A DNA stretch of 64,000 nucleotides from Nitrospira sp. ND1 (GTDB lineage: Bacteria; Nitrospirota; Nitrospiria; Nitrospirales; Nitrospiraceae): assembly GCF_900170025.1 (NCBI RefSeq), contig NZ_FWEX01000005.1:735774-799773 (forward strand). Reading direction: 5' to 3'. Made by a program: the position numbers and the translations under genes. Numbering within the stretch: the first letter of the stretch is position 1; each line of letters starts with the position of its first letter. The notes under the pieces were generated by a model. The model had not been told where the DNA came from and did not search any database. It saw only the letters and a list, made by a program, of their open reading frames with translations. Of this stretch, positions 20,281 through 45,011 are shown piece after piece.

Positions 20281-20805
20281 TTAGTTCTTCAGCATCGACT
20301 TCCAAAAGAACAGCTTGGCCCAGAAAAATCCCGCCCAGGGCAGGAAACAGGCCGCGATCGGATGGACCGCGCCATAGATCATGCTGACCATTGAGCCCGC
20401 GAGCAATACCGCCAGGCCGACCATATAGGCGCCCGGAGCCCAGGGTGACCCGCTGGCCTGTTCCTGACTGGCCGCACTCTCTCGTTTGGGTTTGCCGCTC
20501 TTACTGACCGTCGGCTGCCGCATGCGCGCCGCAAACACCTCCGGGCGATTGGTCAAGATCCACCGGTGGTACGTCGTCTGCACCCACCCGAGCACCCCGC
20601 CCAGCAGCAACAACCCGGAACTTTGGAGAAAGGTCCACCACGTGTAGCTGTCGGTAGCGATGAGCTGATACCCGAGCCCGCCGACCCCGCCGATCATGGA
20701 AATCAGGCCAAGGATGCCGGCAGGAAATAACATGTATGCTTTGATGTAGGCCGTCGCACGCGCGTCGTGCCCTTCCTGCTGCTTGAGAGAGATCAGTTTT
20801 GCCAT
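20281..20805 (-). CDS. Conserved four-helix membrane protein, unknown function
   Basis: I do not recognise this 174-residue protein. It shows about four membrane segments: two near 25-75 (MLFPAGILGLISMIGGVGGL and SSGLLLLGGVLGWVQ) and two near 125-170. A Ser/Lys/Gln-rich cytoplasmic loop lies between them. The gene is convergent with lpxD, with 18 bases between stops, and seems to be a single unit. Its long empty upstream region would contain the promoter. Confidence 0.7.
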   Translation of the reverse strand: MAKLISLKQQEGHDARATAYIKAYMLFPAGILGLISMIGGVGGLGYQLIATDSYTWWTFLQSSGLLLLGGVLGWVQTTYHRWILTNRPEVFAARMRQPTVSKSGKPKRESAASQEQASGSPWAPGAYMVGLAVLLAGSMVSMIYGAVHPIAACFLPWAGFFWAKLFFWKSMLKN

Positions 20806-21292
20806 GGGCGTGATGGTCGTACAATCGCAACCTCAACCGCAAGCGAAAATGTGTCGGACCGGGACAAATTTCAGCGAGCAGCGAAGCAAGCATACCTTTT
20901 CCGTGCAGGGCCCCTCGTCACTCGACGAGCAAGAGGCGTGAGCACAGGGGGCGCAGGCCGACGGAGTTGATTCCCTCCAAGCTCGCACGGCAACACGTGT
21001 TCAGCAGGCGGTGGATCGATCGTTCAGGATTGACGTGGGGAACCGGCGATCTCAACTGAGTGGCATCATTCTTCCCTGTCCACAAGAACTGTGGACGGAC
21101 TGTGCGCAACCATGTGGACAGACCTCCGCCGACAGTGGCTGCGTAGGAATGCCCGCAATGTGCTCAATAATTAGGCGGCATCACGTGAGATTTCTCAGCA
21201 GGATGGAACAGTGTTCATCTTTGAGCGGTTGAGGGCAGGCGACGCGGAGAGGCAGGCAAACCGGCTATCAATTGGGAGCGCTTCGTCAACCG
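20806..21292. other. 487-bp intergenic region with a repeated TGTGGAC motif
   Basis: No convincing gene is seen. GTCCACA-AGAAC-TGTGGAC (21078-21096) is a perfect 7-bp inverted repeat, and TGTGGAC recurs at 21113-21119. The copies match 6-7 of 9 bases of the DnaA box, but too few are present to call an origin. The region separates the membrane protein gene from the end of the chemosensory operon. Confidence 0.5.
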
Positions 21293-23365
21293 CTACGCCA
21301 TGGGGAGGATGTCAAAAATGGCCGCCCGTTCCACGCGGCCGACATCGACCCATTGCTGGGCCAGCGGAATGAGCGTGGCCAATCGTTCTTCCACGGCTGC
21401 CAGTCGCTCGCGGATGACCACCGGTTTGTGCTGGGCCGTGACGCGGAGGAATGTACGCAGGCCATGCAGGAACAGGCTGATATTCGCCGCGGCCACCCGG
21501 TCGGCCGCATCGAAAAGCGCCTCGATCTCGACAAAAATGGGTTCCAACGCCTGGGGTGGGAAGACGCGATCCTCACTGGTGAGAGCGACATGCCTGAGCG
21601 TCGCGATCACCGCCGGGATATGCGCCTGCATGTGCGCGAGAAATCGCTCGTCCAACTCATCCAGCTCCTGCAACAGTCGCCCGATGGCACGCGCATCCAC
21701 CACGCCTGTCCCTCGCGCCATCTCCTGCTCGGCACGCTGAATCACGGTTTCCAACACATCGCGCACCGGTTGCAGCGATCGACCTCGCGCCTGATGCAAC
21801 TGCCGCAAGGCGTCAAGAATAGATGCGGCCGGCAACGAAGTGGAAGGCGCGTCGCACGGAACGTCAGCCTCGACAGGGGCCGGCGCTTCAGCGACCATCG
21901 GCTCAGGCATTTCAGTCACAGGCTGCTGCACAGCGACGGCAGCTTCGAGATGATCCTGGGGTGGCCGCTCGAGCGCCTGAAGCGCCTGCACCGTCTTGCT
22001 GATTTCGAGCAGCCCCTCCCGAAGCGACGCCACATGATGAGCCGCCACGGTGCGCTCATGTTTTGCGGCGGCCTGAAGGAGCGGAAGCAGTCGGGTCGCC
22101 ATGTCTTCCACGGCCGTCAACCCGACGGTCGCGGCGGATTGCGCGAGGTTGCTGACGCTCTGCCATAAAATCGTCGTCAACTTGGCGCGGCGCCCCTGTT
22201 CACTTGTCGTGTCGAGCCGCTCAAGCGCCGTCTGGATCTGATTGAGCCATTCACGGGCCTCCAATACAAACAGGCCGAGAATTTCCCGCCGGACATGCGG
22301 GCCCTGGTCAGGCGCGTCGATCGTCGACTGGACCTGCGCAGGCTGCGCAGCTGCCTTGGGTTGCTCCACCGCGGCCTGAATCACGCCGGCGATCGCATCC
22401 AGACTTTCGAGCAAGGCGGCAAACTGATCCGATGCGCTCGTCGGCGTGGCGGGCTCGGCAGCCATCGGTGCGGGTGCAAACGTGAAGCGCTCCAATGCCG
22501 GTGAATCGACAGTTTCTGCGACCGACACCTGGGGCAACTGACTGAGATCGAGAAACCGCGGCGGATCGGTCACCCCTGTCTCCTGTGCGCCGGTCACACG
22601 AAGCACCGGACGAGATGGGTAGCGAGGCGTGATTCGCACCACCACCCCTTCTTCGCCGCTGCTCAGGCGCACTTTGGTACCCAGCGGGTAGACCGAGAGT
22701 TGCTCGACCAATCCTTTCATGATTTCACGGGGAAACGCAGTACGCTCCGTGTTCAATAACTCACGGATCGCCTCGTGCGGGAGGAGGCGCCGGCGGTAGG
22801 GGCGCGGACTGACCAACGCATCGAAGATATCGACGAGCCCGATGATCTGCGCCAGCTCATTAATTTCACGCCCCTTTAAACGGTTTGGGTACCCCTGCCC
22901 CTTCCCGCGCTCATGGGCCTGCAATACCACTTCGGCCAGCCAGGCATAGTCCGCACCGAGACGTTCGATCACCCCATACCCCGAACGCGGATGTTGCTCG
23001 ACCAGAGCCCGCTCATCGGAGCTCAGACGGCCGGTCTTCGTCAGTAGATGCTGCGGCACGGCAAAAATGCCGATGTCGTGCAGGAGCCCGGCCAACGCCA
23101 AACGCCGCAACTCCGCGCCGTAATAGCCGAGGCCGATCCCGACCTTCGTCGCGAGAATGCTCACATTGACTAGATTGGTAACCAGCGGAGGGCCGACAGG
23201 ACTGGAGAGGGCTTCAACGACTAACTGATCATTTTCCTGAATCGACTCGACGATGCTGCCGGCAAGATGGGTCAACTCCGTCAGGTTCACCGGTTCCTGC
23301 CGTTGCACGGCGGCAGCGACCCGCATCAGCGCATCCTCAGCCTGCCGGTAGTGATTCTGCTCCAT
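21293..23365 (-). CDS. HD-GYP protein with C-terminal histidine-less Hpt module
   Basis: Residues about 60-225 of this 690-residue protein form an HD-GYP domain: HD at 96-97 in LLHDIG, HERGKGQGYP at 151-160 and VDIFDAL at 179-185. The usual HHExxDGxGYP is altered: the first His is Ala and the Asp is Lys. Activity against cyclic di-GMP is therefore uncertain. A beta-rich segment follows to about 265, then a Pro/Ala-rich linker. Residues about 358-690 are homologous along their length to the next gene upstream. They include an Hpt-like motif in which the phosphorylatable His is replaced (S405) and the conserved Lys is Ala. It is the last gene of the chemosensory operon and a probable output or scaffold protein. 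Confidence 0.85.
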   Translation of the reverse strand: MEQNHYRQAEDALMRVAAAVQRQEPVNLTELTHLAGSIVESIQENDQLVVEALSSPVGPPLVTNLVNVSILATKVGIGLGYYGAELRRLALAGLLHDIGIFAVPQHLLTKTGRLSSDERALVEQHPRSGYGVIERLGADYAWLAEVVLQAHERGKGQGYPNRLKGREINELAQIIGLVDIFDALVSPRPYRRRLLPHEAIRELLNTERTAFPREIMKGLVEQLSVYPLGTKVRLSSGEEGVVVRITPRYPSRPVLRVTGAQETGVTDPPRFLDLSQLPQVSVAETVDSPALERFTFAPAPMAAEPATPTSASDQFAALLESLDAIAGVIQAAVEQPKAAAQPAQVQSTIDAPDQGPHVRREILGLFVLEAREWLNQIQTALERLDTTSEQGRRAKLTTILWQSVSNLAQSAATVGLTAVEDMATRLLPLLQAAAKHERTVAAHHVASLREGLLEISKTVQALQALERPPQDHLEAAVAVQQPVTEMPEPMVAEAPAPVEADVPCDAPSTSLPAASILDALRQLHQARGRSLQPVRDVLETVIQRAEQEMARGTGVVDARAIGRLLQELDELDERFLAHMQAHIPAVIATLRHVALTSEDRVFPPQALEPIFVEIEALFDAADRVAAANISLFLHGLRTFLRVTAQHKPVVIRERLAAVEERLATLIPLAQQWVDVGRVERAAIFDILPMA

Positions 23366-23564
23366 TTCCTCTTAGCCTCCAGCCTCGACGCGCTTCGTCA
23401 CGCGGCACGCCTTTGTTTTCACCTCTGCATGGTCCAACGCTCCGAGTCAGGCGAATCAGCGAAGCCGTCCGGAATGATCCCCATGGTGGAGGTGCGCCTT
23501 CAACTCAACAAAGCCTGTCCTGGAAGTCCTGTCCGAGGCCGGTCGCGCGCTGTGAGGAGCGTCC

Positions 23565-24536
23565 TCAGGCGGCAGGCAGCAGCCGGCTCATCAGATCATG
23601 TTCCTGTTGTCCGGCGGTGATCCAGTCCTCGATCGTGGTCATCACGGCGAGAATGCGTGCTTCGACGGCCTGGACACGTTGGGACGCGATCACGATACGA
23701 CGCTGGACAATCAAGGCCAGGAAGTTCTGAAGGCCGGTGAGAAAGGTCACCAGCGGGGTGGCATTGACCTGCTTGGCAATGCCTTGGAGTTGTTCGATCT
23801 GTTGCATGCAGGTGCCGAGCACGTTGCCTGGTTCCAAAACCGTCAATCCCTCGACCCGGAGCCTGTTCAGGTTCTGCGCAATGCCGGGCAATGCTTGTCG
23901 TAGTGAGTCCAGGCATCGGGCGTCCGTGCTTTGGAGCTCACCCAGCAGCTGCTGAAACGCGGTCATCTGTATCTGGCTCTCCCCTTGTCTCGCTTCCTGC
24001 TCCAATCGGTGCATGACTTGTGGAATCAAACTGCGGGAAGGGACTTCCTTGGCAACCTGCTCGTCTTGAAGCATGCGAAGCGCGTTCAGGAGCGTGAGGA
24101 AATCGATGGCCGGTTCCGGTTGTGGAGGCGCGCCCTGCTCAGGACCAAGGTCCAGCGTAATGCCAGTGGCCATGGTGACGGACGCGATGACGAGACAGAA
24201 CTGTTCACGGACCGTGCCGAAATCCTGCTTGGTCGCCGTCGTCCGGTCTTTCAGGGTGTCGATGAAGGGAAGCAGTGCGAAGGTAGCGCGTTCGACATCG
24301 GGAAGGTTCACCGTGGCGGCAGAACCACCGAGACTGGTGATGCCCCTCACCACGGCATCCACCAGTTGCGCATGCCGATCGGTATCCGGCTGGCTTTCCA
24401 GTTCGGTCAGGGCGGAATGGATTTGGATGAGCCACTCTTGCGCCTCTTGACCGAACAGTTCAATCAGTTCTTTTTGAAAATCGTCTTCGGTCTGTTCTGG
24501 TTCGGTCGACACAGTGGCGCCCTGCCTCTGACCCAT
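23565..24536 (-). CDS. Histidine-less Hpt-like chemosensory protein
   Basis: A 323-residue soluble protein. Its N-terminal helix pair (ELIELFGQEAQEWLIQIHSA) matches Hpt domains of the nearby CheA and residues about 361-380 of the HD-GYP protein. Aligned without gaps to the CheA motif RVAHTLKGSAYTVGF it reads RGITSLGGSAATVNL: the His is Thr67 and the Lys is Gly. It therefore cannot be phosphorylated as an Hpt. The remaining 240 residues are helical and also paralogous to the HD-GYP C-terminus. It may dock on CheA or receivers as a decoy or scaffold (inference). It lies 35 bases after the receiver/coiled-coil gene in the operon. Confidence 0.72.
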   Translation of the reverse strand: MGQRQGATVSTEPEQTEDDFQKELIELFGQEAQEWLIQIHSALTELESQPDTDRHAQLVDAVVRGITSLGGSAATVNLPDVERATFALLPFIDTLKDRTTATKQDFGTVREQFCLVIASVTMATGITLDLGPEQGAPPQPEPAIDFLTLLNALRMLQDEQVAKEVPSRSLIPQVMHRLEQEARQGESQIQMTAFQQLLGELQSTDARCLDSLRQALPGIAQNLNRLRVEGLTVLEPGNVLGTCMQQIEQLQGIAKQVNATPLVTFLTGLQNFLALIVQRRIVIASQRVQAVEARILAVMTTIEDWITAGQQEHDLMSRLLPAA

Positions 24537-24571
24537 GCACTCGCCTGAACATACGGACGAGTGACGGCCTC

Positions 24572-26062
24572 CTAGCGTTTTCCATTACCGAGTTGGGAGG
24601 CCAGCCCCGCGATCTCCCCCAGCTTCCTCGCCATATCTTCGAACCGGCGAGTCGACTGCTCCGCCATGTGCTCGGCTTCCATCGCCCGTTTCTCGAGCTG
24701 CATCGAACGCTCCTGCTCGCTGACCAGGGCGAGATCCAGCTCACTGGCACGTTGCGCCGTCGCTTCCAACTGTTTGACCTGAACTAACAGCGCCGCCGCA
24801 GCCTCCCGTTCAGCCGAGAGCGCCGCGTCCAGCTCGGTGATCTGAGCATGGGCTTTCGCACAGGCCTCTTCCAGCGCCGGCACCTTGTCTGCAACCTGTT
24901 CCAGCTCGACACGCTCCCGTCGCTGCAGTTCCGCTTGCTCACGTTCAGCGGCCAAGGTCGTTTCGAGCTCGTGCACGCGCGTTTCGACCTGCTCAAGACC
25001 GGTAATCTGCTGCACCAATTGATTCGCCGCTTCCCGCTCTGCCTCCAGATGGGCCTCCAATTCCACGATGCGCGCGGCATGACGGGCCCCTTCCGAAACC
25101 TGTTGGGACAATTGCTGGGCACGATGCTGCTCATCGGCCAGAGCCGTCTCCAGTTCGCCGATCCGGTGCATCTGTCTCGAGACTCCATCCAACTGTTCTG
25201 CGAGAGCGGTTCGCTGCGCCCGCTCGTCGGCTAGACTCTGGTCCAATGTGTGTGCATGTGACGACAGGGCTGCAACCTGCTCGTGCTGCTCATCCAACGC
25301 ACGCTGGATGTGCCCGATCTGCTGGGTCTGCTCCAGACTCCGCCGACGCTCCTCGTCCAACTGCGCTTCGAGTTCGCCGATCCGCGTGTCACGTTCCGCC
25401 AGGATTGCATGATGATGCTCATGATCATGCGCCGGCGTAGCCGGCTCAGCGGCATGGAATGCAGGGGCCGCATCCACCATCGTGTCGCGGGTCATCGTCG
25501 CCGGTATGGCGTGAGGATCGTCAAGACTGCTCGTGATCGGCTCGAGCGACGGCCGATGCTCCTGAGTGTCTACGCGGGCCTCTTCGAGTTCTTCCGGCAC
25601 ATGAATGGCGGGTGCGGCCGCGACCTCTGCCACGATAGATGGCTCCACGGCCACGTGCTGCTGCGGCAGTTCCGGAACCGGAGCAGGCTTTTGTGGGCGC
25701 TTCGTCAACAGGTCCAGCACACGGTCCTTGAGTGAGGAGCCCTGAAACGGCTTCTTCAAGACCCCGTCGGCCTTACAGGACTCCGCTTGTCGGGACACTT
25801 CATCGTTCACGATACCGCTGATCAGCAGCACGGGAAGATCCGCGAGGTTTGCCTGTCCCCGAATGTACGCACAGACCTCATAGCCGCTCTTGTCCGGCAT
25901 GATGACATCGGACACGATGAGGTCGGGGCGATCCTTACTTAACAGCGCCAGAGCCTCAGATCCGTTCGCCGCAAGTGTCACCCCCATGCCGGCCTCGGTC
26001 AGGAGACGCTCGGCCACCTTACGGACTGCGATACTGTCGTCGGCAATCAAGATCTTTGGCAT
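24572..26062 (-). CDS. Response regulator with long C-terminal coiled coil (FrzS/AglZ-like layout)
   Basis: Residues 1-120 are a complete receiver: acidic pair D8-D9, phospho-acceptor D52 (DLIVSDVIMPD), a Ser in LLISG and a Lys in LKKPF. An acidic/Pro linker (about 125-215) leads to a nearly continuous coiled coil (about 220-485) with repeated L-E-x-x-L and RIGELE/RIVELE blocks. Receiver plus long coiled coil is the layout of Myxococcus FrzS and AglZ, which set cell polarity for motility. Unlike those pseudo-receivers, this one keeps all phosphorylation residues. It is probably the phosphorylated output of the adjacent CheA (inference). There is no DNA-binding domain. Confidence 0.88.
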   Translation of the reverse strand: MPKILIADDSIAVRKVAERLLTEAGMGVTLAANGSEALALLSKDRPDLIVSDVIMPDKSGYEVCAYIRGQANLADLPVLLISGIVNDEVSRQAESCKADGVLKKPFQGSSLKDRVLDLLTKRPQKPAPVPELPQQHVAVEPSIVAEVAAAPAIHVPEELEEARVDTQEHRPSLEPITSSLDDPHAIPATMTRDTMVDAAPAFHAAEPATPAHDHEHHHAILAERDTRIGELEAQLDEERRRSLEQTQQIGHIQRALDEQHEQVAALSSHAHTLDQSLADERAQRTALAEQLDGVSRQMHRIGELETALADEQHRAQQLSQQVSEGARHAARIVELEAHLEAEREAANQLVQQITGLEQVETRVHELETTLAAEREQAELQRRERVELEQVADKVPALEEACAKAHAQITELDAALSAEREAAAALLVQVKQLEATAQRASELDLALVSEQERSMQLEKRAMEAEHMAEQSTRRFEDMARKLGEIAGLASQLGNGKR

Positions 26063-26090
26063 GTCGTTCCTCTACACAAGGCAAGGCTCA

Positions 26091-26567
26091 TCACGCGGGG
26101 CGGTTCGATGAGACCCCCAAGGTTGTCAGGTTGATGATAGGAAGTTCTTCTTCGCCGGCGATGCACGTTCCCGCGATGTCGGGATCGTTGCCGGCGCGAT
26201 ACTGCACTGCCGAGCGTGCCACCATGTGCAAGGAAGGAACCTGGGAATCGATACAGATTGCCAGCGGTCCATCCACATGTTTGACAACCAGACACAGCGG
26301 TTCACCATCCTGCAGGGAACGCTTGAACTTCGCCGCCAGGTCGAATACCGGAAGACATCCCTTCTCCTGTCGGACGAGAGCGCGCACAAACGGCGTATCG
26401 CTGGGAACCGCCGTCGAGCCCGTCCACGGCATCACCCCGCCGATCTCCTCGGTTCTGGCGGCCAACCGTTGCCCGCCCACCGAAAACACCACCATGTGCT
26501 GCATCCGCGCCTCGGTCGCGCCTTTGCTACCCTTGTGCGGTTGTCTGCCTAGCTGAGTACGTAGCAT
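26091..26567 (-). CDS. cheW: CheW-like coupling protein
   Basis: The ATG at 26567 follows AAGGA with 7-base spacing and gives 158 residues. A CheW domain spans about 25-150: MVVFSVGGQRLAARTEEIGG, then FVRALVRQEKGCLPVFDLAA, and ends with GEEELPIINLTTLG. CheW proteins link receptors to CheA. This is one of three CheW-type genes in the operon, so different receptors or arrays may be served. It starts 16 bases after the preceding CheW-like gene. Confidence 0.82.
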   Translation of the reverse strand: MLRTQLGRQPHKGSKGATEARMQHMVVFSVGGQRLAARTEEIGGVMPWTGSTAVPSDTPFVRALVRQEKGCLPVFDLAAKFKRSLQDGEPLCLVVKHVDGPLAICIDSQVPSLHMVARSAVQYRAGNDPDIAGTCIAGEEELPIINLTTLGVSSNRPA

Positions 26568-26583
26568 GGTCGATCCTTGTGAC

Positions 26584-27156
26584 CTACTTGGCCGATCCGG
26601 CTGACATCGCCGACGCCTCTTCCAAGGCCGCCGAAGGCAGGCGGAGTCTGGAATCGAATTCGCCCGGCCGGCGCTCCGACACCCGAAGGGCAAACACATC
26701 CAAGACATTGGTCCGGGAGGGGAGCTCGAGCACCCAAAACGGATTGGCGATCAGCGCGATATACGACGACTCAACAAACAATCCGAGCAATCGCTCCCGC
26801 TCCCCTCCCCGAAACTGCGCAGGGAGCGGCTGGATCAGCGTCCGTTCGACATCGATGAGGCCCACGACCTTGTCCACCGCAAAGGACCGCGATCGTTGCT
26901 CATTGGCATAGAGCACGATCCGGGTCTCAGCCGTGACGCCTTTGGCCTGGATCGTCAAACGACGGGCGAGATCGGTGCGTTCGTAGGAAGCATTGGCCCA
27001 GGTGACATGCCCGTCCTGGCCCCCCTCAGCCGGAGTCACAATGCCGCGAACCCAGTGGGAGGGAAAGGCCACATGCGTGGGGCCCATGAGCGCCACGAGA
27101 AATCGGACCGCCAACCCGCTCGACACCACTGCTGCCTTATGTCCCCGGAGCCCCAT
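26584..27156 (-). CDS. Divergent CheW-domain protein
   Basis: The 190-residue protein has a CheW-like core at about 15-160: VRFLVALMGPTHVAFPSHWV, then FAVDKVVGLIDVERTLIQPL, and LLGLFVESSYIALIANPFWV. It is more diverged than the two other CheW genes and carries a C-terminal extension of about 35 residues. It directly follows cheA in the operon (47-base gap). A coupling or receptor-array role is likely; a specialised adaptor for the histidine-less Hpt proteins is possible but unsupported. Confidence 0.7.
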   Translation of the reverse strand: MGLRGHKAAVVSSGLAVRFLVALMGPTHVAFPSHWVRGIVTPAEGGQDGHVTWANASYERTDLARRLTIQAKGVTAETRIVLYANEQRSRSFAVDKVVGLIDVERTLIQPLPAQFRGGERERLLGLFVESSYIALIANPFWVLELPSRTNVLDVFALRVSERRPGEFDSRLRLPSAALEEASAMSAGSAK

Positions 27157-27203
27157 GCCTGTCCTTCATTCTGCCAGTAACGGTACGAATCGACAAAACG
27201 TTC

Positions 27204-30200
27204 CTATTTTTTCACGACGCTTTCGCGGCCTGTCCACTTGCGGACTTCCTGGATCAGGGCGCGTTCTTCCACCGGCTTGGCAATGTACCCCGAGGCCCCC
27301 ACACTCACGGCCATCTGGCGATGCTTTTCACCCGCCCGCGTGGTCATGACGAGAATCGGTGTGGCCTGAGTCTGCGGCCTGGCGCGAAGCGCCTGAATGA
27401 CTTCAAAGCCGTTCAACTTCGGCATTTCGAGATCGGTGATGATGAGCTGGTACTGCTGCACCAATGCCTTGCGACAGCCTTCTTCTCCGTCGGTCGCCGT
27501 TTCGACGATATACCCGGCCGACTCCAGCATGCGTCCGACAAACTTTCTGATGCTGAGCGAGTCATCGATCAACAAGAGCGGAAGCTGCGTATCCGGAAGC
27601 TGCGGCGAAGCGGGCTGCGCCGGTCCCTCAAGCATCGGCGAGGAGGCGGGGTTTTGAATGACCGACATGGCCTCATGGTATTCGCGAGTCGTCAACCGGC
27701 TGACGTCCAGAACCAGCACCACACGCCCCTCGGGATCGATAGTCGCGCCACCGAACACGGACCGTTCATACGGCCTCAGCCCACCCAATGATTTAATGAC
27801 GATTTCCTGCCGGCCCAGCAATTCATCCACCGCGCAACCAAGCGCGCCGGTCGAGGTTCGAACGACGACCACGGGAGTCGCTCCCTCAATGGTGCCGGCA
27901 TCCCGGCGAATGAGGCTGCCGAGCGGATAGACCTCAATGGCTTCGTCGCCGATCTGCAGCACCGATCGATCCCCCATCTGCTGGATCGTCGACGCCGTCG
28001 ACATTGTGACTTCACGCACGCTCGGAAGCGGAATCGCGTAGCGCTCTTTCCCGACCCGAACGAGCAGCGCAGTTGCGATCAAGAGGGTGAGTGGCAAATG
28101 CATCGTGAACTTGGTGCCCTGCCCGTAGACGGATTCCACCTCGATGTGGCCGTTCATCGTCTCGATGACCCGCTTCACCACATCCATGCCGACGCCGCGT
28201 CCGGCCTGATCCCCGACCGCCTCGGCAGTGGAAAACCCCGGCAGGAAGATGAACTTGATAATTTCGCTCTCCGGCAATGAGTCCGCGACATCCGCTCGTA
28301 CCAGACCCAGCTTGACCGCTTTGGCCTTGATCTTGACGATGTCGAGCCCCGCTCCGTCGTCTTCGACTTCGATAAGCACCGAGTTCCCTCGATGCGCGGC
28401 GTGGAGATAGATCGTACCGGCCGCCGGCTTCCCTTGGCTGCGACGGATGCCCGCAGGCTCGATCCCGTGGTACACCGCATTTCTGACCAGATGGACAAGC
28501 GGATCGACAAGCCGCTCCACGACACCGGTGTCGATTTCGGTATGTTCGCCGGACGTGACTAAATTGACTTCTTTTCCGGTAGCGCGGGCCATCTCACGGG
28601 CCGCGCGGCGGAAGCGCGTGAACGGCGTCCCGATCGGCACCATGCGGGCGCGGGCAATTTCATCGCGCATGCCCAAGGTCAACTGTTGCAGCGACCCCAT
28701 GTCGTCCTGGGCGCGATGGATCGATCCGCTCAGCTGCGACATCGATTCGGTGATGTCCGCGGTGACCTCGCTGATTCGCCGGGCCAGGATGTTGAAGTCG
28801 TCGTACTTGTCGAATTCCAGGCTGCCGAAATCACTGACGCCCGGATACGCCTGCGGCGCGCCTTCGCTCGAGGACGCGGGAGAGGGCTGAAAGGAAAAGG
28901 TATGTTTATCTTCGAAGGTGCGTACGGCATCGGTCAGCCGGTTCTTGTTGGCCAAGACCTGTGTGGCCAATTGATCCAACGTGCGCAGCCGCTGCTCCAG
29001 CCGGCCGCGATCGATAACCAATTCGCCGACCAGATTGAGGAGGCGTTCCAAACGATCACGGCTGACCCGGATCACCTCTCGCTCTTCGCCGGTCTTCCCA
29101 TCGACGCCTTTGGCCGAATCCTGTCCGTCGGCTTCGCGAATTTCTTCCACCGAGGCGCCTTCGGCAATCGATGAGACGATGGGGTGATCTTGGTCCGGTG
29201 CCGGCTGAGCCTGTCCCAGTTGCTTCAACTCCTGCAAGGAGTTCGCAAACCGTTGTCTCGTTCGCCCCACCATGGATACATCCCGTCGCATCAAGGCGCG
29301 AATGACATCGATTGAGCGCAACAGGACATCCGTGTGACCGGGAAGGAGCACCAGCTGCCCTTCGCGAACGGCGCCCATGAAGTCTTCAATGTGATGAGTC
29401 AGATCACCGATCGCCTGAAAGCCTACGGTATAGGCCGAGCCTTTCAGCGTATGGGCTGTGCGGAACAGTTGGTGGATCGTGTCGGGATTGCCCGCGTCCT
29501 TATCGACTCGCAGCAAGTCGGCTTCGAGGCTTTCCAAATATTCCTGCGCTTCCGGCGCGAAATAGGACATCACCTCAGAATCGAGGGCCGGGATCAGATA
29601 GGCCTCGGAGAGCTCCTGGGAGTCCGCCTCGCTCATGGAGTGCACAGCGGATTCGGGACCGGATGTGGCGGCAGGCACGGCCTCCTGCACCGACTTCTCT
29701 TCAGGCCGCCTCGTCTCAGCGGCAGCCGCTGCAGACTCACCCTGGCTCACACCCTGCTCCAATTCTCTGAGCTTCGTCCTGATGCGAGGCACCTCCTGAC
29801 GCAAGCGCGTCAGTGATTGAGCGTCCCGCGCCATCAGGGAACGGATCACATCCACCGCCTGCCGCAGAACGGCGATCCAATGCGGCGCGATCGTGACAGC
29901 GCCCTCGCGAACGGCCATCATGCAGGATTCAATCGGATGAGAGAGATCTCCCACGACCTCAAATCCAACGGTATAGGCCGACCCTTTCAGCGTGTGCGCC
30001 ACCCGATACAATTGATGAATCGTGTCGGCATTTGCCAAGTCAGAGTCCAACCGTTGGAGCAGGGTCTGGATCGTGTTGAGGTATTCTTCTGCCTCCGGCG
30101 AGAAGTAGGACAGCACCTCTTCGTCCAGGACAGGAATGAGGTACTCATCCGCCGGCTGATCGGAACGCTGCACAGACGCTGCCGACGGGTCGCTCGAAAC

Positions 30201-30593
30201 GGCCGGCATCAAGTCGGAGTGGCGCCGGACAAATCCCTCAACCACGGAGGCATCTTCCCCTCCCCCACGCCCGATCTGCTCGACCTGCCCTCGAAAAGAG
30301 GCGGCAATCTCGCGCATCAGTTGCATGGCTTCGGGCCAGCGCGCCGCCGGAATCTCCTGCACTCGTTCGAGCGTATCTTCGAGTAGGGCCCCGAGTTGCC
30401 CGAGCGCCGGGAACCCGTAGAGGAGCGCCGCGCCTTTGAGCTTGTGGCCGACCGTGTGAAACTCGGCGACGTCGCCCGGCTCCGGATGCGCCTTCCCATC
30501 GGGATGCAACGCTTTCCAGAAGCGCCCCATATCGTCGCCGGCCTCGGCCACGAAAATGTCCAGCAACTGGTCGCGATCGAAATCAGCGCTCAT
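27204..30593 (-). CDS. cheA: Hybrid chemotaxis kinase CheA with three Hpt domains and a receiver
   Basis: The 1129-residue protein reads, in order, Hpt1 (H50 in VGHKLKGAAL), Hpt2 (H200), Hpt3 (H381), dimerisation helices (about 510-570 and the region to 650), HATPase (HLVRNAVYHG, EDDGAGLD and GRGVGMDVVK), a CheW domain (about 830-960) and a C-terminal receiver (about 1000-1120, phospho-Asp in IITDLEMP). Hpt2 and Hpt3 are close copies with the same YLIPxLD lead-in, pointing to internal duplication. The layout resembles PilL/ChpA, the kinases of type IV pilus systems. It autophosphorylates and passes phosphate to the receivers of this operon and to its own. All three histidines are present. Confidence 0.95.
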   Translation of the reverse strand: MSADFDRDQLLDIFVAEAGDDMGRFWKALHPDGKAHPEPGDVAEFHTVGHKLKGAALLYGFPALGQLGALLEDTLERVQEIPAARWPEAMQLMREIAASFRGQVEQIGRGGGEDASVVEGFVRRHSDLMPAVSSDPSAASVQRSDQPADEYLIPVLDEEVLSYFSPEAEEYLNTIQTLLQRLDSDLANADTIHQLYRVAHTLKGSAYTVGFEVVGDLSHPIESCMMAVREGAVTIAPHWIAVLRQAVDVIRSLMARDAQSLTRLRQEVPRIRTKLRELEQGVSQGESAAAAAETRRPEEKSVQEAVPAATSGPESAVHSMSEADSQELSEAYLIPALDSEVMSYFAPEAQEYLESLEADLLRVDKDAGNPDTIHQLFRTAHTLKGSAYTVGFQAIGDLTHHIEDFMGAVREGQLVLLPGHTDVLLRSIDVIRALMRRDVSMVGRTRQRFANSLQELKQLGQAQPAPDQDHPIVSSIAEGASVEEIREADGQDSAKGVDGKTGEEREVIRVSRDRLERLLNLVGELVIDRGRLEQRLRTLDQLATQVLANKNRLTDAVRTFEDKHTFSFQPSPASSSEGAPQAYPGVSDFGSLEFDKYDDFNILARRISEVTADITESMSQLSGSIHRAQDDMGSLQQLTLGMRDEIARARMVPIGTPFTRFRRAAREMARATGKEVNLVTSGEHTEIDTGVVERLVDPLVHLVRNAVYHGIEPAGIRRSQGKPAAGTIYLHAAHRGNSVLIEVEDDGAGLDIVKIKAKAVKLGLVRADVADSLPESEIIKFIFLPGFSTAEAVGDQAGRGVGMDVVKRVIETMNGHIEVESVYGQGTKFTMHLPLTLLIATALLVRVGKERYAIPLPSVREVTMSTASTIQQMGDRSVLQIGDEAIEVYPLGSLIRRDAGTIEGATPVVVVRTSTGALGCAVDELLGRQEIVIKSLGGLRPYERSVFGGATIDPEGRVVLVLDVSRLTTREYHEAMSVIQNPASSPMLEGPAQPASPQLPDTQLPLLLIDDSLSIRKFVGRMLESAGYIVETATDGEEGCRKALVQQYQLIITDLEMPKLNGFEVIQALRARPQTQATPILVMTTRAGEKHRQMAVSVGASGYIAKPVEERALIQEVRKWTGRESVVKK

Positions 30594-30645
30594 TCACCCA
30601 CTCAGCATCCGAGCGGAGGTCGGTCACCGCTCTTCAAGAATTCTC

Positions 30646-32520
30646 TTACGCGAGCTTGAACTGAGCGACCGAAGAGTTGAGGCCTTCGGCCAGTTTTGCC
30701 ATGTCTTCGATCGTGAGTCGCGTCGAGTCCGTCTGCTTCTGCGTCGCCACGGCGCCGCCCGTGAACTCCTTAATGGCTCGACCGACTTTTTCCGTCGAGG
30801 CGGTCTGTTCGGACGCCGCGCTCGCGATGTTCTGGGCCAACTCGGAAGACCGTTTCGCAATGTCTGAAATTTCAGCGAACACGTCGCCGGTCCGGAGAGC
30901 CGAAGCGGATCCGGCTTCCACCGCCTGCGTTTCATGCTCCATGGCCACCACGGCATCCTGCGTTTCCGTTTGAATCACTTTCACGAGGTCGGCGATTTCA
31001 CGTGTGGCTTGCGTGGAGCTTTCCGCCAGCTTTCTGACCTGGTCGGCGACGACGGCGAATCGTGCGCCGGCCTCACCCGCGCCGGCCGCCTCAATGGCGG
31101 CGTTGAGCGCGAGCAGGTTCGTTTGATTGGCGATATCGCGGATCGTCGACACGATCTGTGAAATTTCGAGTGAACGGTCACCGAGGCCCTTCACCTGCTT
31201 GGACATACGTTGCACCGCCGACCGGATGCTCTGCATGTCGCGCACGGTTTCCTGCACCGCGACGTTGCCGCGTTCCGTGGCCGACAGCACCTGCTTGGCG
31301 GAGTCGGAGGATGCGCCGGCCGTAGTGGCCACTTGACGCATACCGGCGGCCAACTGTTCGACCGCGCCCAGCGTACGCACGGATTCTTCCGCCTGCACCC
31401 GGGCTGTTCCGGACATTTGACCGGCTGAATCCCGCAGGGTACCGGCTGACTTGTTCACCCGATCAGCCGCCTCGCGCACCTGCTTCAACAATTGTCCGAA
31501 CCGCGCGATCATGAGGTTGAACCCGTCCGCAAGGTTGCCGAACATGTCGGCCGTCACTTCGCCTCGCCGGGTCAAGTCTCCTTTACCGACTTCGGAGACC
31601 AGCACGAGGAATTGCATGAGCCGTTTCTGCATCAGGTCGCGCTCTTCCTCCGTCGACACCAGGGCGGTAATACGATCGAGCATGGAGTTGAACGCGGTGG
31701 CCATCTGGCCCAACTCATCGTGCGACTGAATCTTCGCGCGGGCCTGCAGATTGCCGCCGGCGGCCTGCGTCGCGACATTGGCGATGTGGCTGATGCTCCG
31801 GGAGAGGAATGTGGCGAGCAGATATCCGACGAACAATCCGAGGGCCACGGCGACCAGACCGCCGGCCACCAGAATCAGGGTACCGTTGTTGGCCAGGCTT
31901 TGCGCATCATCGTTGAGGTCCTTGGCGACGGCCTCGATGGCCGTAACCTGCTCATTGTGGCGTTTGACGGCATTTTCGAATGAGGGCGTCAAATTGACCG
32001 TTAAGGCCAGGATACCGAGGGCCCGCATTTGCTCCGCTTGCGTCGATGACAGGACGTTACGATCGAAGCTATCCGCCATGGCGCTCAGTGCGCCGTCGGC
32101 ATCCTGAAAGTATTTTTTCAATGCCGGCTCAAAGAGGGTCAGATCCTTCGCCTCGTCCCGGCCCGATCGCGATACGCGCAGCGTCGTGCTCTTATAGTTG
32201 TTCACCACCTTGTCGATCTGGGCCTTCAGGGGCGGCAACTTGGTCACTTCCTGGGCGAAGTCGCCTTGTTTGGTGGCGGACGCGATATCCAGCAGAATCT
32301 GGTGATGTTTGGTCAACGCGGTTCCCATCTGGGCGAACTCAGCCAACGGCACCGTATAGTCCGCATACACCGTTTGCGACTGGGTGCTGAGTTGGCGCAG
32401 GGTGAGCACACCGACGCTGGCCATGATCATGATGATGACACTCACGAGACCGAAGCTGACCAGCAGCTTCGTCTTTGTTTTCATGTCCTGAAATTGATTC
32501 TTGACGCCTTGCCCGATCAT
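30646..32520 (-). CDS. PilJ-like methyl-accepting chemotaxis protein
   Basis: A 624-residue receptor. A first membrane helix (about 19-42) and a second (about 215-240) enclose a helical periplasmic sensor of about 170 residues. A HAMP domain (about 240-290) and a second HAMP-like segment (about 305-355) follow, then the signalling domain with the hairpin tip [20 protein letters not shown]. Double HAMP and helical sensor resemble PilJ. It presumably signals to the CheA encoded next. Whether it is methylated is unclear since no cheR or cheB lies here. Start at 32520 has AGGAGG some bases upstream. Confidence 0.93.
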
Positions 32521-32615
32521 GGTGCGCTCCTCCTTGTTCTGCTTTCCTCAACATCCGGTGGCCGGTCGCACAATCTTCGATGACGCAGGTTCGCAATGAC
32601 CCGCGCGCCTGCGCT

Positions 32616-33161
32616 TTACGCGATCGACAATATCGCACTCCCTCCGTCAACCTGTGCAAAGACCTGCGGCACCTCCAGTACTCCACCCAGACGTTCATCC
32701 AGGCGAAGCACAGCCGAGACACAAGGACGCGCCCCCGCCGGTCCCGCTTGCATGGCCGGCAACAGGTGCTCGCGACTGACGGTGTGAATTTCAGGAACGT
32801 GATCGACGAGCATTCCCACCTGTCGGCTGCCATGGCGAATCACGACCGCGAAAGGCAGCACGGTCCCGGTCACGGGCAGGCCCAGGCTTCCTCGCAAATC
32901 GACGAGGGTAATGACCGTTCCCCGGAGATTGGTCACTCCGGTCAACAGGCCCGGCATGCTGGGCACGACGGTGACCGCTTCCACCTCAAACACTTCACTG
33001 ACGTGGCGGAGATCGATGGCGAACAACTCGCCTCCCAGCGTGAGGACACACATACGCAGCGTGCCTTCGATCGACGCGGCAGAAGACCTCGATGGGCTGG
33101 AGGGTCCGTGAGCCGGAGTTGAGTCCGAGGAGTGAGCCTGGATCGTTGGCACGTCGCTCAT
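32616..33161 (-). CDS. cheW: CheW coupling protein
   Basis: The 181-residue protein has a full CheW domain (about 32-165): MCVLTLGGELFAIDLRHVSE, then VTNLRGTVITLVDLRGSLGL, VVIRHGSRQVGMLVDHVPEI and a C-terminal region. A Ser/Pro-rich leader precedes it. It is the most canonical CheW of the operon and probably the main coupler between the PilJ-like receptor and CheA. It starts 3 bases after the cheY stop. Confidence 0.93.
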   Translation of the reverse strand: MSDVPTIQAHSSDSTPAHGPSSPSRSSAASIEGTLRMCVLTLGGELFAIDLRHVSEVFEVEAVTVVPSMPGLLTGVTNLRGTVITLVDLRGSLGLPVTGTVLPFAVVIRHGSRQVGMLVDHVPEIHTVSREHLLPAMQAGPAGARPCVSAVLRLDERLGGVLEVPQVFAQVDGGSAILSIA

Positions 33162-33591: not shown

Positions 33592-34326
33592 CTATCGCAT
33601 CGGAATCACGATGCTGATCGCACCGGCCAGATCGCCCTCGTGCCATCCTTCTTTCTTGGCGCCGGTGATGTCGCGCTCCCCTTTCGGGTCGCCATGGCAA
33701 CTCAGGCACGTGCTCGCGGCATATTCCGGATCCATCATGCGCAGTACCGGCTTCCCGTCCAACATCGTGGTCTTGCTGTACGGCTGGCCTTTCGGATGGC
33801 GCGTGTCGGCAAAAATTCTCAACACTTCCGACTCAAACTCGTCCGGCCGATTGCTCGGAAACCGATAGTCGGTGCCCGTCAACTTCACACGAATTCCGGT
33901 CTTCCGATAGAACCGTTCGCCGGACTTGCGGGCGAAGACGGCGGGGATAATCCCTTTGAAGCCGACGCCCTGCTTATTGATGACGGGCTGCGCCTCGTCG
34001 ATGACTTCTTTTTCGGATTCCACCATGGCGAGAAAAAGCGGCGCTTGCGGAACCGTGGCGGGCCGGCTCAGATCGATCTTGGTGGCTTTGCGAAATCGTT
34101 CAATCACCTGATTGGACACAAAGTCGCCGCTAAACCCTTTGTCGCCCTTGCTGGCGTCATTGATCGTGGCTTGGTATTCGGAAATCACCCCACGACCGAC
34201 TTGCAACAACTTGATGAGCAACTCGGCCGTTTCCACCTCGGTATTGGCCGACGCGGGAGCAGCCGCGCCCATGCAGGTCACGGTCAATGCAGCCATCACG
34301 ATTCTCTTGATGATATGTTTCGCCAT
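33592..34326 (-). CDS. Periplasmic DUF3365 c-type heme protein
   Basis: A 244-residue protein with a signal peptide (about 1-28, VMAALTVTCMGAAAPASA) and a DUF3365 (Tll0287-like) domain. A single heme motif, CLSCH, lies near residue 205, followed by GAISIVIPM. Related domains occur as sensory heme modules on kinases and receptors. It is the first gene of the chemosensory operon, 64 bases before cheY, so it may be the redox or gas sensor feeding the receptor (inference). It has no membrane anchor other than the signal peptide. Confidence 0.88.
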   Translation of the reverse strand: MAKHIIKRIVMAALTVTCMGAAAPASANTEVETAELLIKLLQVGRGVISEYQATINDASKGDKGFSGDFVSNQVIERFRKATKIDLSRPATVPQAPLFLAMVESEKEVIDEAQPVINKQGVGFKGIIPAVFARKSGERFYRKTGIRVKLTGTDYRFPSNRPDEFESEVLRIFADTRHPKGQPYSKTTMLDGKPVLRMMDPEYAASTCLSCHGDPKGERDITGAKKEGWHEGDLAGAISIVIPMR

Positions 34327-34721: not shown

Positions 34722-36293
34722 CTAGACCGTCCCACCTTGACGAAGGAACGCCAGGATCGGGGCGAGATCTAGATGTCGTTCGACGTGATCGGCCCATCGA
34801 TCCATCGCACCGGATCGCTGTCGGTTCACCTGTTGCGACAAGGCCATGTCGGCGGCTGGAAGCCCTTTTCTGATACGCAACCGGTTTAACCATGCACGTC
34901 GACAGAGTGGCTCGTCGAACAGGCCATGGATGTAGGTCCCCCAGACCAGACCGTCATCGCTCATCGCGCCGTCGAGCCACGCATCATCCCGTTCGGTGAC
35001 GTCGCGTGGGCCTGCGGGCGACGGTTCTTTGCCCTGCAGTTCGAAGCAAGCTCGATGTCCATGTCGATCCGTCCGTCCCATGTGAATCAAGTACCCTCGA
35101 ACCGGTGGCGCCGCCGGCCCACCGAGATACAAGGCACGCCCTTCGACCTGCTCGGTGATTTTCTCCCGCATCAACACCGTCGTCACCTGCAGCAGGCCGA
35201 GCCCCTCGCCGCTCCCGCCTGATTCGACCGCATCCGGATCGGCGATCCGGCGCCCCAACATTTGATACCCGCCGCAAATGCCGACCACTTCTCCCCCGCG
35301 GTGGACATGACCATGTAGGAGTGATTCGAACCCCTTGCCTCGCAGATAGGCGAGGTCCGCCAATGTGGTTTTGGAACCGGGAAGCAGAATCGCATCAGCC
35401 CCGGCCGCTTCTTCGGGGGTCGCCGCATATCGCAACGCCACATCCGGTTCACCGGCCAGCGCATTGAAATCGGTGAAGTTGCTCATGTGGGGCAGGAGGA
35501 TCACCGCCAGGTTGATATAGTCACGCTGAAACGCGACCTGTCGTCGGATATCGACGTCCAGACTGTCCTCTTGATCGAGTGCCAGGTCGCGCAAAAACGG
35601 CAAGATGCCCAGGACAGGAATCCCTGTCCGCTCCGTCAAAAAACGGACGCCGTCGGCAAAGAGCGCCGCGTCTCCCCGGAACTTGTTGATGACGATCCCG
35701 CAGACCCGGTCACGCTCCTCCGGCGTGATGAGATCGAGCGTGCCGATAATCTGTGCGAACACGCCGCCACGATCGATATCCCCGACCAACACTACCTGGG
35801 CATCGGCCATCTCGACGACCGGCCAGTTCACCAGGTCGCGATCTCGCAGATTGACCTCTGCAGCGCTGCCGGCGCCTTCGATGACCATGACCTCATACTG
35901 CGAGGCGAGGCGGTTGTAACTGCGTTCCACCGGCTGGAACAATTCAGAGTCCCGGCTGCGCGCGAAATAGGCCCGGGCCTCGCGCGTGGCAAACACTTTT
36001 CCCTGCACGATGATCTGAGCCCTGGAATCGGATTCCGGCTTGAGCAGAATGGGATTCATATCCACATGGGGGGGAATTCCACAGGCTTCGGCTTGCAGAG
36101 CCTGAGCACGCCCGATCTCACCGCCCTCCGGCGTGACAAAGGAGTTCAACGACATATTCTGCGCCTTGAAGGGCGCGACGCGGAACCCGGCGCGGTACAA
36201 CAGCCGGCAGAGCCCCGACGTGATCATGCTTTTCCCGACATCAGAGCCGGTCCCCAGAATCGCAATGGCTTTGGCACGAGAAGGATGAGGCAT
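34722..36293 (-). CDS. cobQ: Cobyric acid synthase
   Basis: A 523-residue amidotransferase. It has an N-terminal dethiobiotin-synthetase-like ATPase with a P-loop at 14-22 (GTGSDVGKS), and a C-terminal class I glutamine amidotransferase with Cys in GICGGYQMLG and His in GTYIHGLFDE. It amidates four side chains of adenosylcobyrinic diamide to give cobyric acid. It is the last gene of the 13-gene B12 operon, 15 bases after cbiZ. Length and motifs are normal. Confidence 0.96.
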   Translation of the reverse strand: MPHPSRAKAIAILGTGSDVGKSMITSGLCRLLYRAGFRVAPFKAQNMSLNSFVTPEGGEIGRAQALQAEACGIPPHVDMNPILLKPESDSRAQIIVQGKVFATREARAYFARSRDSELFQPVERSYNRLASQYEVMVIEGAGSAAEVNLRDRDLVNWPVVEMADAQVVLVGDIDRGGVFAQIIGTLDLITPEERDRVCGIVINKFRGDAALFADGVRFLTERTGIPVLGILPFLRDLALDQEDSLDVDIRRQVAFQRDYINLAVILLPHMSNFTDFNALAGEPDVALRYAATPEEAAGADAILLPGSKTTLADLAYLRGKGFESLLHGHVHRGGEVVGICGGYQMLGRRIADPDAVESGGSGEGLGLLQVTTVLMREKITEQVEGRALYLGGPAAPPVRGYLIHMGRTDRHGHRACFELQGKEPSPAGPRDVTERDDAWLDGAMSDDGLVWGTYIHGLFDEPLCRRAWLNRLRIRKGLPAADMALSQQVNRQRSGAMDRWADHVERHLDLAPILAFLRQGGTV

Positions 36294-36308
36294 AGGAAAT
36301 GAAGAACG

Positions 36309-37037
36309 TTACGTGCGATGTGTTGCCGCCCACTCTGTCGCGCGCGCCAGACCTTGCGTGAGGCACTCGGCGACGACCCGTCCGATCAAGGATCCGATCG
36401 GAGTATGGGTTCCGGCATAGTCCGACCGGGGAGCGCTCCCCCGCAGGGCACAGGCGACAACCACGGCGTCCGTCCCCGTGCCGGTCGCGCCGGGACGACC
36501 GGTCCAACTGGGCACCGCATGGTCACGCAGCACTCCGGTCTTGCTCTCCGTCACCACCTGTACCGCACAGACCAGGGCCGGCACGGCGAGGCAGGCATTG
36601 GTGACCACCATCAGATTGATCGTCCCGGCTCGACGGACCGTGCTGTCAGCTTCTTCTCGCGGCGGCGGCTCACCTGCCCGCACCGCGTTGGTGACACCGA
36701 CGGTGGCAAAACACTCGACCCAGATTCCATCCTGCGCCTCACGGCACGTCACAACCTGTTTCATCGGAACTGCCGTCATCAGGCCGACACAATCGGGATC
36801 CACTCCCAAATCCACCGCGATTCGCTTGAGGTAACGGGCAGGATGTTCCCACTTCGAGTGAGTCGCCTGCCGAACAGGATTGGAGGACACCTGATGATTC
36901 ACTATGTAGCGCGTCGTTCGAAGCCCTCCCCCCCTTGGAGCGGACGACAACACCCGCATGCGGGTTCCCAGATCGAGGATGAGCGTGTCCTTGGCAATTC
37001 GGTAGCGAGTGGTGAAACCATCCGGCCACATCGTCAT
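36309..37037 (-). CDS. cbiZ: Adenosylcobinamide amidohydrolase CbiZ
   Basis: The 242-residue protein matches CbiZ, with VGLMTAVPMKQV, then VTNAVRAGEP, GTINLMVVTNACL and GTGTDAVVVAC. CbiZ removes the aminopropanol or nucleotide-loop arm from adenosylcobinamide or pseudo-cobalamin, giving cobyric acid that can be rebuilt with the correct lower ligand. Finding it beside cobD, cbiB and bluB points to corrinoid salvage and remodelling. It overlaps cobD by 4 bases. CbiZ is best known in archaea and some bacteria with imported corrinoids. Confidence 0.92.
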   Translation of the reverse strand: MTMWPDGFTTRYRIAKDTLILDLGTRMRVLSSAPRGGGLRTTRYIVNHQVSSNPVRQATHSKWEHPARYLKRIAVDLGVDPDCVGLMTAVPMKQVVTCREAQDGIWVECFATVGVTNAVRAGEPPPREEADSTVRRAGTINLMVVTNACLAVPALVCAVQVVTESKTGVLRDHAVPSWTGRPGATGTGTDAVVVACALRGSAPRSDYAGTHTPIGSLIGRVVAECLTQGLARATEWAATHRT

Positions 37038-38143
37038 GCGCCACCCTTGTGAAGGAGAACCGACAGGGTTCGCAGGAGGCGATCATTGTCGGCCCTGGGA
37101 CGCACTGCGACGCGCACCGAACGGTCATTCAATCCAGGCACTTGCGAACAATCCCTTATCAGGAGTCCCTGCCGGCGAAGCGCGGCCACCACGGCGGTCG
37201 CTTTCTGCCCGACCGGCACCTCTATCAGCAGAAAATTGGCGGCAGAGGGAAAGACCGTGCAACCGGGCAACCGGGTCAGTGCCTTCTGAACGCGGGTTCG
37301 CTCCCGCTCCATGAAACGAAGGCTTCGCCCGGCGTGTCGCACATCTTTCAAGGCGGCGACCGCAGTTCGCTGCGCCAACATGTTCACCGACCAGGGCGGC
37401 TGCTGCGCCGCGATTCTGGCAATCACAGCAGGCTTCGCCGTGGCATAGCCCACACGCAGTCCGGGCAACCCATAGAACTTGGTAAAGCTGCGCAGCACGA
37501 CGGTCCGTGGGGGAAGAGGCTCTGACAAGATCGACGCGTGATCCGCATATTCGGCGAAGGTTTCGTCCACGATACACCAGAGCCCCCGGCGAGCCACCAG
37601 ACGCGCACACTTCCTTACCGCGGCAGCCTCGCAGGCGCGACCGGTCGGGCTGTTGGGATTGCAGAGGAGTACTGCATCAATAGGAGAGGCGCCGCTCGCA
37701 GACTGCCGCCGCTTCTGCAACGCCGCGAGGACCGACTCCAGCGGAGGACGATATCCGTCGGCACGATCCGCCATCAGCATGGTGACCCGTCCCCCGGCGC
37801 GTGTCATCGCTTCAGCATATTCGGAAAAGGTCGGGCCGATCAGCAGGAGATGTCTGATCCCCAATGTCCTGGGAAGGAGATGGATCAACTCGGTCGATCC
37901 GTTGCCGACCAGAAACTCCTCACTCGGGCGTTTCCAATACGCGGCCAGCGCCTGCCGCAGTGCCCAACAAGCCGGGTCCGGATAATGACCGAGCAACACC
38001 TCGGCTGTCCGCAGGGTTCGCACTGCGGCGGGAGACGGTCCCAAGGGATTGATGCTGGCGCTGAAATCCAGGAGTCGATGGAGATCTCGCCCTAACTCAC
38101 GGGCCGCCGCATACACATCCCCGCCATGACCGATGCGCGTCAT
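37034..38143 (-). CDS. cobD: L-threonine-O-3-phosphate decarboxylase
   Basis: A PLP enzyme of the aminotransferase I/II family (369 residues). The opening TRIGHGGDVYAAARELG, then LLDFSASINPLGPSPAAV, is characteristic of CobD. The PLP lysine is in LRSFTKFYGLPGLRVGYA. It makes (R)-1-aminopropan-2-yl phosphate, the linker used by CbiB. The ATG at 38143 is chosen because it overlaps the cbiB stop as ATGA; a start three codons earlier is possible. A histidinol-phosphate aminotransferase reading is unlikely in this context. Confidence 0.93.
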   Translation of the reverse strand: MTRIGHGGDVYAAARELGRDLHRLLDFSASINPLGPSPAAVRTLRTAEVLLGHYPDPACWALRQALAAYWKRPSEEFLVGNGSTELIHLLPRTLGIRHLLLIGPTFSEYAEAMTRAGGRVTMLMADRADGYRPPLESVLAALQKRRQSASGASPIDAVLLCNPNSPTGRACEAAAVRKCARLVARRGLWCIVDETFAEYADHASILSEPLPPRTVVLRSFTKFYGLPGLRVGYATAKPAVIARIAAQQPPWSVNMLAQRTAVAALKDVRHAGRSLRFMERERTRVQKALTRLPGCTVFPSAANFLLIEVPVGQKATAVVAALRRQGLLIRDCSQVPGLNDRSVRVAVRPRADNDRLLRTLSVLLHKGGA

Positions 38144-39848: not shown

Positions 39849-39858
39849 GGCCGCCATC

Positions 39859-40911: not shown

Positions 40912-40927
40912 CGGGTCTTCTCCCCTG

Positions 40928-41464: not shown

Positions 41465-41468
41465 CGGT

Positions 41469-43588: not shown

Positions 43589-43589
43589 C

Positions 43590-44987: not shown

Positions 44988-45011
44988 TACAGTACGGCGC
45001 TCATCTCTTCC

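Follow-up and report, generated by a model that had tools for sequence, protein, structure and literature searches.

FimL of Pseudomonas aeruginosa carries Gln in place of the phosphorylated His of a histidine phosphotransfer (Hpt) domain (PMC3019171), and, together with ChpA, it brings PilG to the poles (PMC10519157). A scaffolding role has been proposed for the His-less domains of ChpA itself (PMC12632253, PMC10542144), and a 2025 review of the Pil-Chp system calls the role of its non-phosphorylated domains unknown (PMC12632253). CheA proteins with several Hpt domains fall, to about 93%, into the type IV pilus (Tfp) and alternative cellular function (ACF) classes (PMC10542144). The protein DvhD, whose structure is solved, binds cyclic di-GMP (c-di-GMP) without cutting it (PMC13090378; here as below, PMC numbers refer to individual passages of these papers). 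We consider here two proteins, P0002 and P0001, encoded in a chemosensory gene run that lies on the minus strand at 20281-33161 of a stretch of 64,000 nucleotides from Nitrospira sp. ND1 (contig NZ_FWEX01000005.1, positions 735,774 to 799,773; the whole stretch is called the window, and its numbering is used throughout). In transcriptional order, CheW comes first; there follow a methyl-accepting chemotaxis protein, a CheA that combines three Hpt domains with a receiver, a pair of CheW-like proteins, a long-tailed receiver protein, P0002, P0001 and lastly a small protein. Sequence comparison and structure prediction together show that both proteins contain an Hpt-like domain that keeps the predicted fold of the CheA P1 domain and has lost the phosphotransfer site. 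Our favoured reading, in which we place a little more than even confidence, is that they are non-catalytic docking modules (a FimL-like scaffold) of a multi-Hpt chemosensory system.

A shared Hpt-like module

P0002 (23565..24536; 323 amino acids when read from its ATG) and P0001 (21293..23365; 690 amino acids) are both confirmed open reading frames (ORFs) and, like every feature of the run located below, lie on the minus strand. P0002 is 27% identical to the C-terminal half of P0001 over 332 amino acids (BLASTP, E 3e-28), in agreement with an earlier note on this DNA, which had called the two proteins paralogous. P0002 consists of an Hpt-like four-helix domain (residues 17-125; 24162..24488) and an all-helical C-terminal domain (residues 140-323; 23568..24119), which BLASTP and the helices of the model show to be common to P0001. 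P0001 is built of a degenerate HD-GYP region (residues 1-290; 22496..23365), a linker, the pseudo-Hpt module, whose Hpt-like domain was placed at residues 357-464 (21974..22297) from the alignment and from superposition of the model, and the corresponding C-terminal helical domain (residues 515-690; 21296..21823, from BLASTP and the model). The note had given this further shared region more than 200 residues; the region is real, and its size in P0002 comes to about 180 ordered residues (140-323), or about 200 with the linker.

The Pfam Hpt family (PF01627) matches P0002 at 29.0 bits, above the cut-off of 24.6, and P0001 at 11.5 bits, below it; at E 0.1 it matches 64 of the 82 members of the family alignment (A2). 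A profile of the module matches the CheA P1 structures 2ld6 and 1tqg (E 5.1e-5 and 7.5e-5), and a profile of P0001 matches the same two structures (E 3e-6 and 1.3e-5). When the N-terminal domain was compared, profile against profile, with the Hpt domains of the CheA proteins of these operons, the score was 57.0 and all 40 block-shuffled controls scored lower (largest 37.0); judged by this comparison, the assignment to Hpt is beyond what chance gives. The AlphaFold models (mean predicted local distance difference test, pLDDT, 87.4 for P0002 and 73.4 for P0001) agree with it: residues 19-125 of P0002 superpose on CheA P1 (1tqg) with Z 13.4 and a root mean square deviation (rmsd) of 2.4 over 104 residues, and residues 357-464 of P0001 with Z 15.4 and rmsd 2.1, likewise over 104 residues. 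The Hpt-like domains claimed in the note are borne out by Pfam in the case of P0002, by the profile search with the shared region and by the superpositions that it had proposed, the last subject to a caution on helical bundles that is given below. We also considered a second Hpt domain in the C-terminal domain, prompted by four helices in a row, and did not retain it: its profile score against the N-terminal domain, 20.1, is no better than what shuffled profiles give (11.0-28.7), and lower than that of a reversed control.

Loss of the phosphotransfer site

Lys and Glu support the phosphorylated His in CheA P1. In the column of this His, P0002 has Thr (T67; 24336-24338, coordinates checked) and P0001 has Ser (S405; 22151-22153), and the Lys has become Gly and Ala, respectively; on re-reading, these residues are the ones that the note had named. 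We counted the His column across stand-alone (solo) modules like P0002 and modules fused to HD-GYP like P0001, excluding the repeats L072-L092, all loci below L033 and any row whose motif contains a gap, and counting identical ORFs once. Among 104 solo rows there are Thr (93), Met (4), Ala (3), Ser (3) and Asn (1), and among 54 fused rows Thr (26), Ser (12), Asn (9), Gly (6) and Ala (1). The CheA Hpt rows of the same loci have His in 91 of 91, and the one extra row in that class is a fused copy, from L180, with Thr. A search for homologues that retain His, which would speak against the loss that the note had claimed, thus gave none in 158 module rows, nor in the L180 copy; only CheA-type Hpt domains keep it.

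The residues around the site have gone as well. Where CheA has H45, K48, H64 and E67, the solo modules (n = 100) mostly have T, G, F and L. The Glu is found in 0/100 solo and 0/53 fused modules, versus 138/138 CheA Hpt domains, and the Lys in 1/100 and 0/53; the column of the second His is likewise lost in the module family. The 138 CheA domains were picked by the pattern HTLKG/HKLKG, so that their His, Lys and Gly are fixed by construction, which leaves just the columns of the Glu and of the second His free to vary. Controls for the His itself that do not depend on this choice are the 91 CheA rows above, the Hpt domains of the genome itself and 19 genomes from outside the order. The genome has 15 Hpt matches, of which only P0002 and P0001 are without His and the other 13 keep it (the pattern picked out the three CheA Hpt domains and 7 of the 10 single loci; in L185-L187 the His was identified by eye in the sequences). 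Of 27 genomes listed outside the order with a match in the alignment search, 19 were fetched, and every one of these 19 has a His-bearing Hpt motif. From these counts, set against controls that keep the residue, we conclude that loss of His is a property of the module family rather than a sequencing error or recent decay; among the homologues examined, the family is found solely in the His-less state.

The prevalence of Thr raises the possibility that T67 and S405 accept phosphate themselves, in the way after which some Xpt domains of ChpA are named, which we regard as very unlikely. In its favour, 93 of 104 solo modules have Thr and 38 of 54 fused ones either Thr or Ser, ChpA of P. aeruginosa has both Thr and Ser versions (PMC12632253), and its receiver, according to one report, may supply the phosphoryl group to two His-less Hpt domains (PMC10542144). 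However, 8 of 104 solo modules have Met, Ala or Asn and 16 of 54 fused ones Asn, Gly or Ala, and on a tree of 150 modules the column passes between Thr and other residues at least nine times, a poor fit to a required phospho-acceptor (the tree was built with the His column left in, 1 of 310, and omits the solos L162 and L170, both with Thr, for which the motif pattern failed). The Glu, the second His and all Lys but one are lost, and the ChpA Hpt domains that do not have the conserved His were not phosphorylated in vitro in the experiments cited (PMC10542144). Because of the residue changes and the disappearance of the supporting residues, a Thr/Ser phosphorelay is not our leading explanation.

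A second alternative leaves phosphotransfer to the three real Hpt domains of CheA and makes the pseudo-Hpt a competitor, which sits on the CheA P4 domain or on the receiver and blocks the transfer, and so acts as an inhibitor rather than a positive scaffold. In favour of such a decoy, the module has the predicted fold of P1 and shares its operon with a CheA with three His-bearing Hpt domains, and the surroundings of the site have changed while the core has stayed. On the other hand, the H45/K48/E67 cluster of P1 is gone, and docking to the kinase should be weakened by its loss. We hold the decoy to be unlikely, and a scaffold to be more likely than a decoy.

Distribution and history of the module

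Searches with P0002 gave matches in 41 of 61 near genomes; the alignment search covered 295 genomes of the phylum and matched 101 of them. A search of contigs by patterns derived from the query returned 235 pattern matches and 103 relatives, of which the best 80, at 79 loci, were kept; distant relatives may escape such patterns. These best 80 of 103 carry Nitrospira or Nitrospirota-type titles, except L115 and L174 (Nitrosospira) and L133 (Omnitrophota). The last is a 3.6-kb contig that encodes a Nitrospira-type solo module (38% identity) with receiver and HD-GYP adjoining, and it is perhaps mis-binned.

The position of the solo gene is nearly invariant. A receiver gene lies directly upstream of it in 95 of the 96 loci judged (those of 100 distinct solo proteins with enough sequence upstream), the exception being L070, where the solo ORF was read from a far-upstream start and overlaps the receiver. 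The order CheA-CheW-CheW-receiver-solo holds in 80 of 82 fetched loci with CheA (of 91 printed), and in the other two no CheW was hit. Downstream of the 100 solo genes we found an HD-GYP gene with the module in 52 cases and one without it in 30 (one of these, in L144, being a mere 127-amino-acid fragment), a contig end in 5 and neither in 5, while 8 were not judged. The two states of HD-GYP, with and without the module, require at least two changes on the tree of solo proteins. The solo module is thus the constant part of the arrangement and the fused module an optional one. A single clean duplication was considered as the origin of the two copies and not adopted: the tree needs two solo/fused changes, since in L179 and L180 the fused copy falls with the solo of the same locus (support 90), although the starred branches force only one.

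Many relatives have a further gene in this region. An ORF with an ExeA/GspA-like P-loop is present in 33 of 35 loci with more than 600 bp between solo and HD-GYP genes, and in 1 of 52 with a shorter gap; this one is L180, in which the ATPase is fused to HD-GYP (L180:7082-10165). The gene for this ExeA/GspA-like AAA ATPase stands between the two in L121, L123, L136, L037 and L131, for example, and is not between them in the window, where the gap is 199 bp. The ATPase may link the operon to the assembly of pili or of type II secretion.

The HD-GYP domain and the proposed role of the modules

The HD-GYP region that the note had seen fused to one copy is confirmed by the HD and GYP motif columns, which are kept in all 87 distinct relatives aligned. 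Its model finds its best fold match in Bd1817 (Z 21.6, rmsd 3.1 over 210 residues). Compared with PmGH (whose numbering is offset by 6 from the chain index; all 18 residues used agree in letter), the columns H221, D222, H250, H277, D305, D308, G284, Y285 and P286 are kept in 87/87, R314 is kept in 86/87 and K317 is Arg in 86/87. The column of ligand H189 is Asn in 87/87 (N64 of P0001; 23174-23176), and that of ligand H276 is Ala or Val in 87/87 (A150; 22916-22918); D183, E185 and K225 have changed too. PmGH loses its activity when H189, H276 or K225 is changed to Ala, and is less active with Ala at E185 (PMC4159591). The other eight HD-GYP-family proteins of the genome all keep H189 and H276; among them E185 and K225 vary, so that these two columns say little. 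On these residues, the fused HD-GYP domain looks inactive too.

Returning to the docking modules that we favour, the Hpt-like domain would most likely serve as a dock for the response regulator encoded next to it, or for CheA, with no phosphate passed on, by analogy with FimL and PilG. The degenerate HD-GYP domain of P0001 probably binds c-di-GMP without cutting it, to judge from the residues kept and lost; c-di-GMP could then control the place or the time at which the regulator is docked, and the solo copy may bind the same partner. Type IV pili and flagella are both possible outputs, because the genome has genes of both kinds (six matches to the T2SS/T4P-family ATPase, PF00437, and two of FliM/FliN type, PF01052). 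A more specific form of this, which we offer tentatively, makes P0001 a double pseudo-enzyme, in which a dead, c-di-GMP-sensing HD-GYP is wired to a dead Hpt that holds the response regulator, with a free sister competing for the partner. If true, it would be a phosphate-free physical link between the CheA pathway and c-di-GMP. Nitrospira include nitrite oxidisers and comammox organisms, and the proposed role would suggest how they tie surface or chemosensory behaviour to c-di-GMP. The natural variants (Thr, Ser, Asn, Met, Ala and Gly in the His column; HD-GYP with and without the module) make "scaffold, not relay" directly testable. Of the note's interpretation as a duplicated scaffold or decoy, the duplicated Hpt-like module, the lost site, the fusion to HD-GYP and the adjoining CheA and receiver stand; it had overlooked the degeneracy of the HD-GYP domain and the 30 relatives whose HD-GYP has no module.

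Several points weigh against the favoured reading. Helical bundles can score high by chance in fold comparison, and ones unrelated to Hpt come close to the scores given above; with Foldseek, nothing matched at E 0.001 or better. The sequence evidence therefore weighs more than the superpositions. The likeness to FimL is drawn from published descriptions and not from sequence comparison. The fusion is not needed for the operon in the 30 relatives with an HD-GYP protein that is without the module. Two other HD-GYP proteins of the genome are also without PmGH ligands (H250 and D305 in L194, H221 in L196), so that partial sites are not peculiar to P0001 and may be common in this genome. RpfG does not have two of the eight ligands (E185 and H189), and yet it is the protein cited for the first demonstration of the activity (PMC4159591); loss of ligands alone is therefore no proof of a dead enzyme. 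P0001 retains five of the PmGH ligands. The last two points would also serve the view that P0001 remains active, as a c-di-GMP or pGpG phosphodiesterase whose metal centre is smaller and which its pseudo-Hpt regulates, since HD, H250, H277, D305 and D308 persist in 87/87. Yet H189 and H276 are replaced in every one of these proteins, the D183, E185 and K225 columns are altered, and a single Ala at H189, H276 or K225 suffices to abolish PmGH activity (PMC4159591); we judge an active enzyme to be distinctly improbable.

The gene run and its surroundings

The response regulator that would be the partner of the docking modules (24572..26062; Pfam Response_reg, 81.5 bits) ends 35 bp from the P0002 gene. 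Its Asp pocket is kept, as read by eye, and its long tail has weak matches of coiled-coil type. Upstream of it lie the two CheW-like proteins (26091..26708 and 26584..27156), CheA (27204..30593), in which three Hpt stretches, each with its His, precede a C-terminal receiver (Response_reg at residues 1007-1117), a methyl-accepting chemotaxis protein with 4HB sensor and HAMP (30646..32520), and CheW (32616..33161). The small protein downstream of P0001 (20281..20805) has the same position in many relatives, and its membership in the operon is unsure because it lies 487 bp from P0001. Scans for promoters and terminators yielded no more than shuffled sequences did.

P0002 is 93% identical to a protein of Candidatus Nitrospira defluvii (locus L104), a close relative of the Nitrospira from which the window comes; the genome of the latter amounts to 4.45 Mb in 6 contigs. 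The start of P0002 (24512-24536) is unsure: the mechanical ORF begins eight codons later in some orthologues, for example that of L104 (315 amino acids). A start at codon 9 was nonetheless rejected, as the DNA shows no clear ribosome site ahead of that codon.

Just upstream of the head CheW, a Tll0287-like protein (33592-34326), which we take to be haem-binding, is a candidate sensor input. Farther away, the window holds a cluster for cobalamin synthesis and salvage (34722-46994; CbiA, CbiZ, CobD, CobS, CobU and a CobA-type protein, with a TonB-dependent receptor) and the specificity and methylase subunits of a type I restriction-modification system (992-3666).

Comparison with known systems

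Each half of P0001 has a known counterpart, and the joined pair is unreported among the literature matches listed: no report there brings together HD-GYP, Hpt and Nitrospira chemosensing, in a search outside of which most subscription journals lay. The Pfam families listed from a scan of the A2 members (25 of 54) contain no FimL family, and the fold lists include no FimL structure, an absence that carries no weight. In its described properties FimL is similar, being a stand-alone, Hpt-like protein whose His is replaced and which is tied to a multi-Hpt CheA with a receiver and to a response regulator (PMC3019171, PMC10519157); the CheA of the window likewise has several Hpt domains and a C-terminal receiver, as in systems of the Tfp and ACF classes. 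FimL differs in having Gln and two Hpt-like domains, whereas the modules described here mostly have Thr and one Hpt-like domain has been shown, and the passages cited mention no HD-GYP domain in FimL (PMC3019171, PMC10519157).

The Xpt domains of ChpA and the Hpt2 and Hpt3 domains of CheA3 are also Hpt folds of chemosensory systems in which the phosphorylated His is absent (PMC12632253, PMC10542144), but these lie inside the kinase, whereas P0002 and P0001 are separate proteins. Unlike the Thr/Ser Xpt domains of ChpA, the module family does not keep Thr or Ser throughout, even though P0002 and P0001 happen to have one of each. For the other half of P0001, DvhD of Desulfovibrio vulgaris is an HD-GYP-family domain that has similarly lost metal ligands; it differs from P0001, which retains HD and bears a pseudo-Hpt, in its periplasmic and PAS domains and in having SQ where HD would stand. 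Bd1817 of Bdellovibrio bacteriovorus, the closest in fold, is titled HDG"Y"P, a title from which we judge that its GYP motif differs, whereas P0001 has the full GYP.

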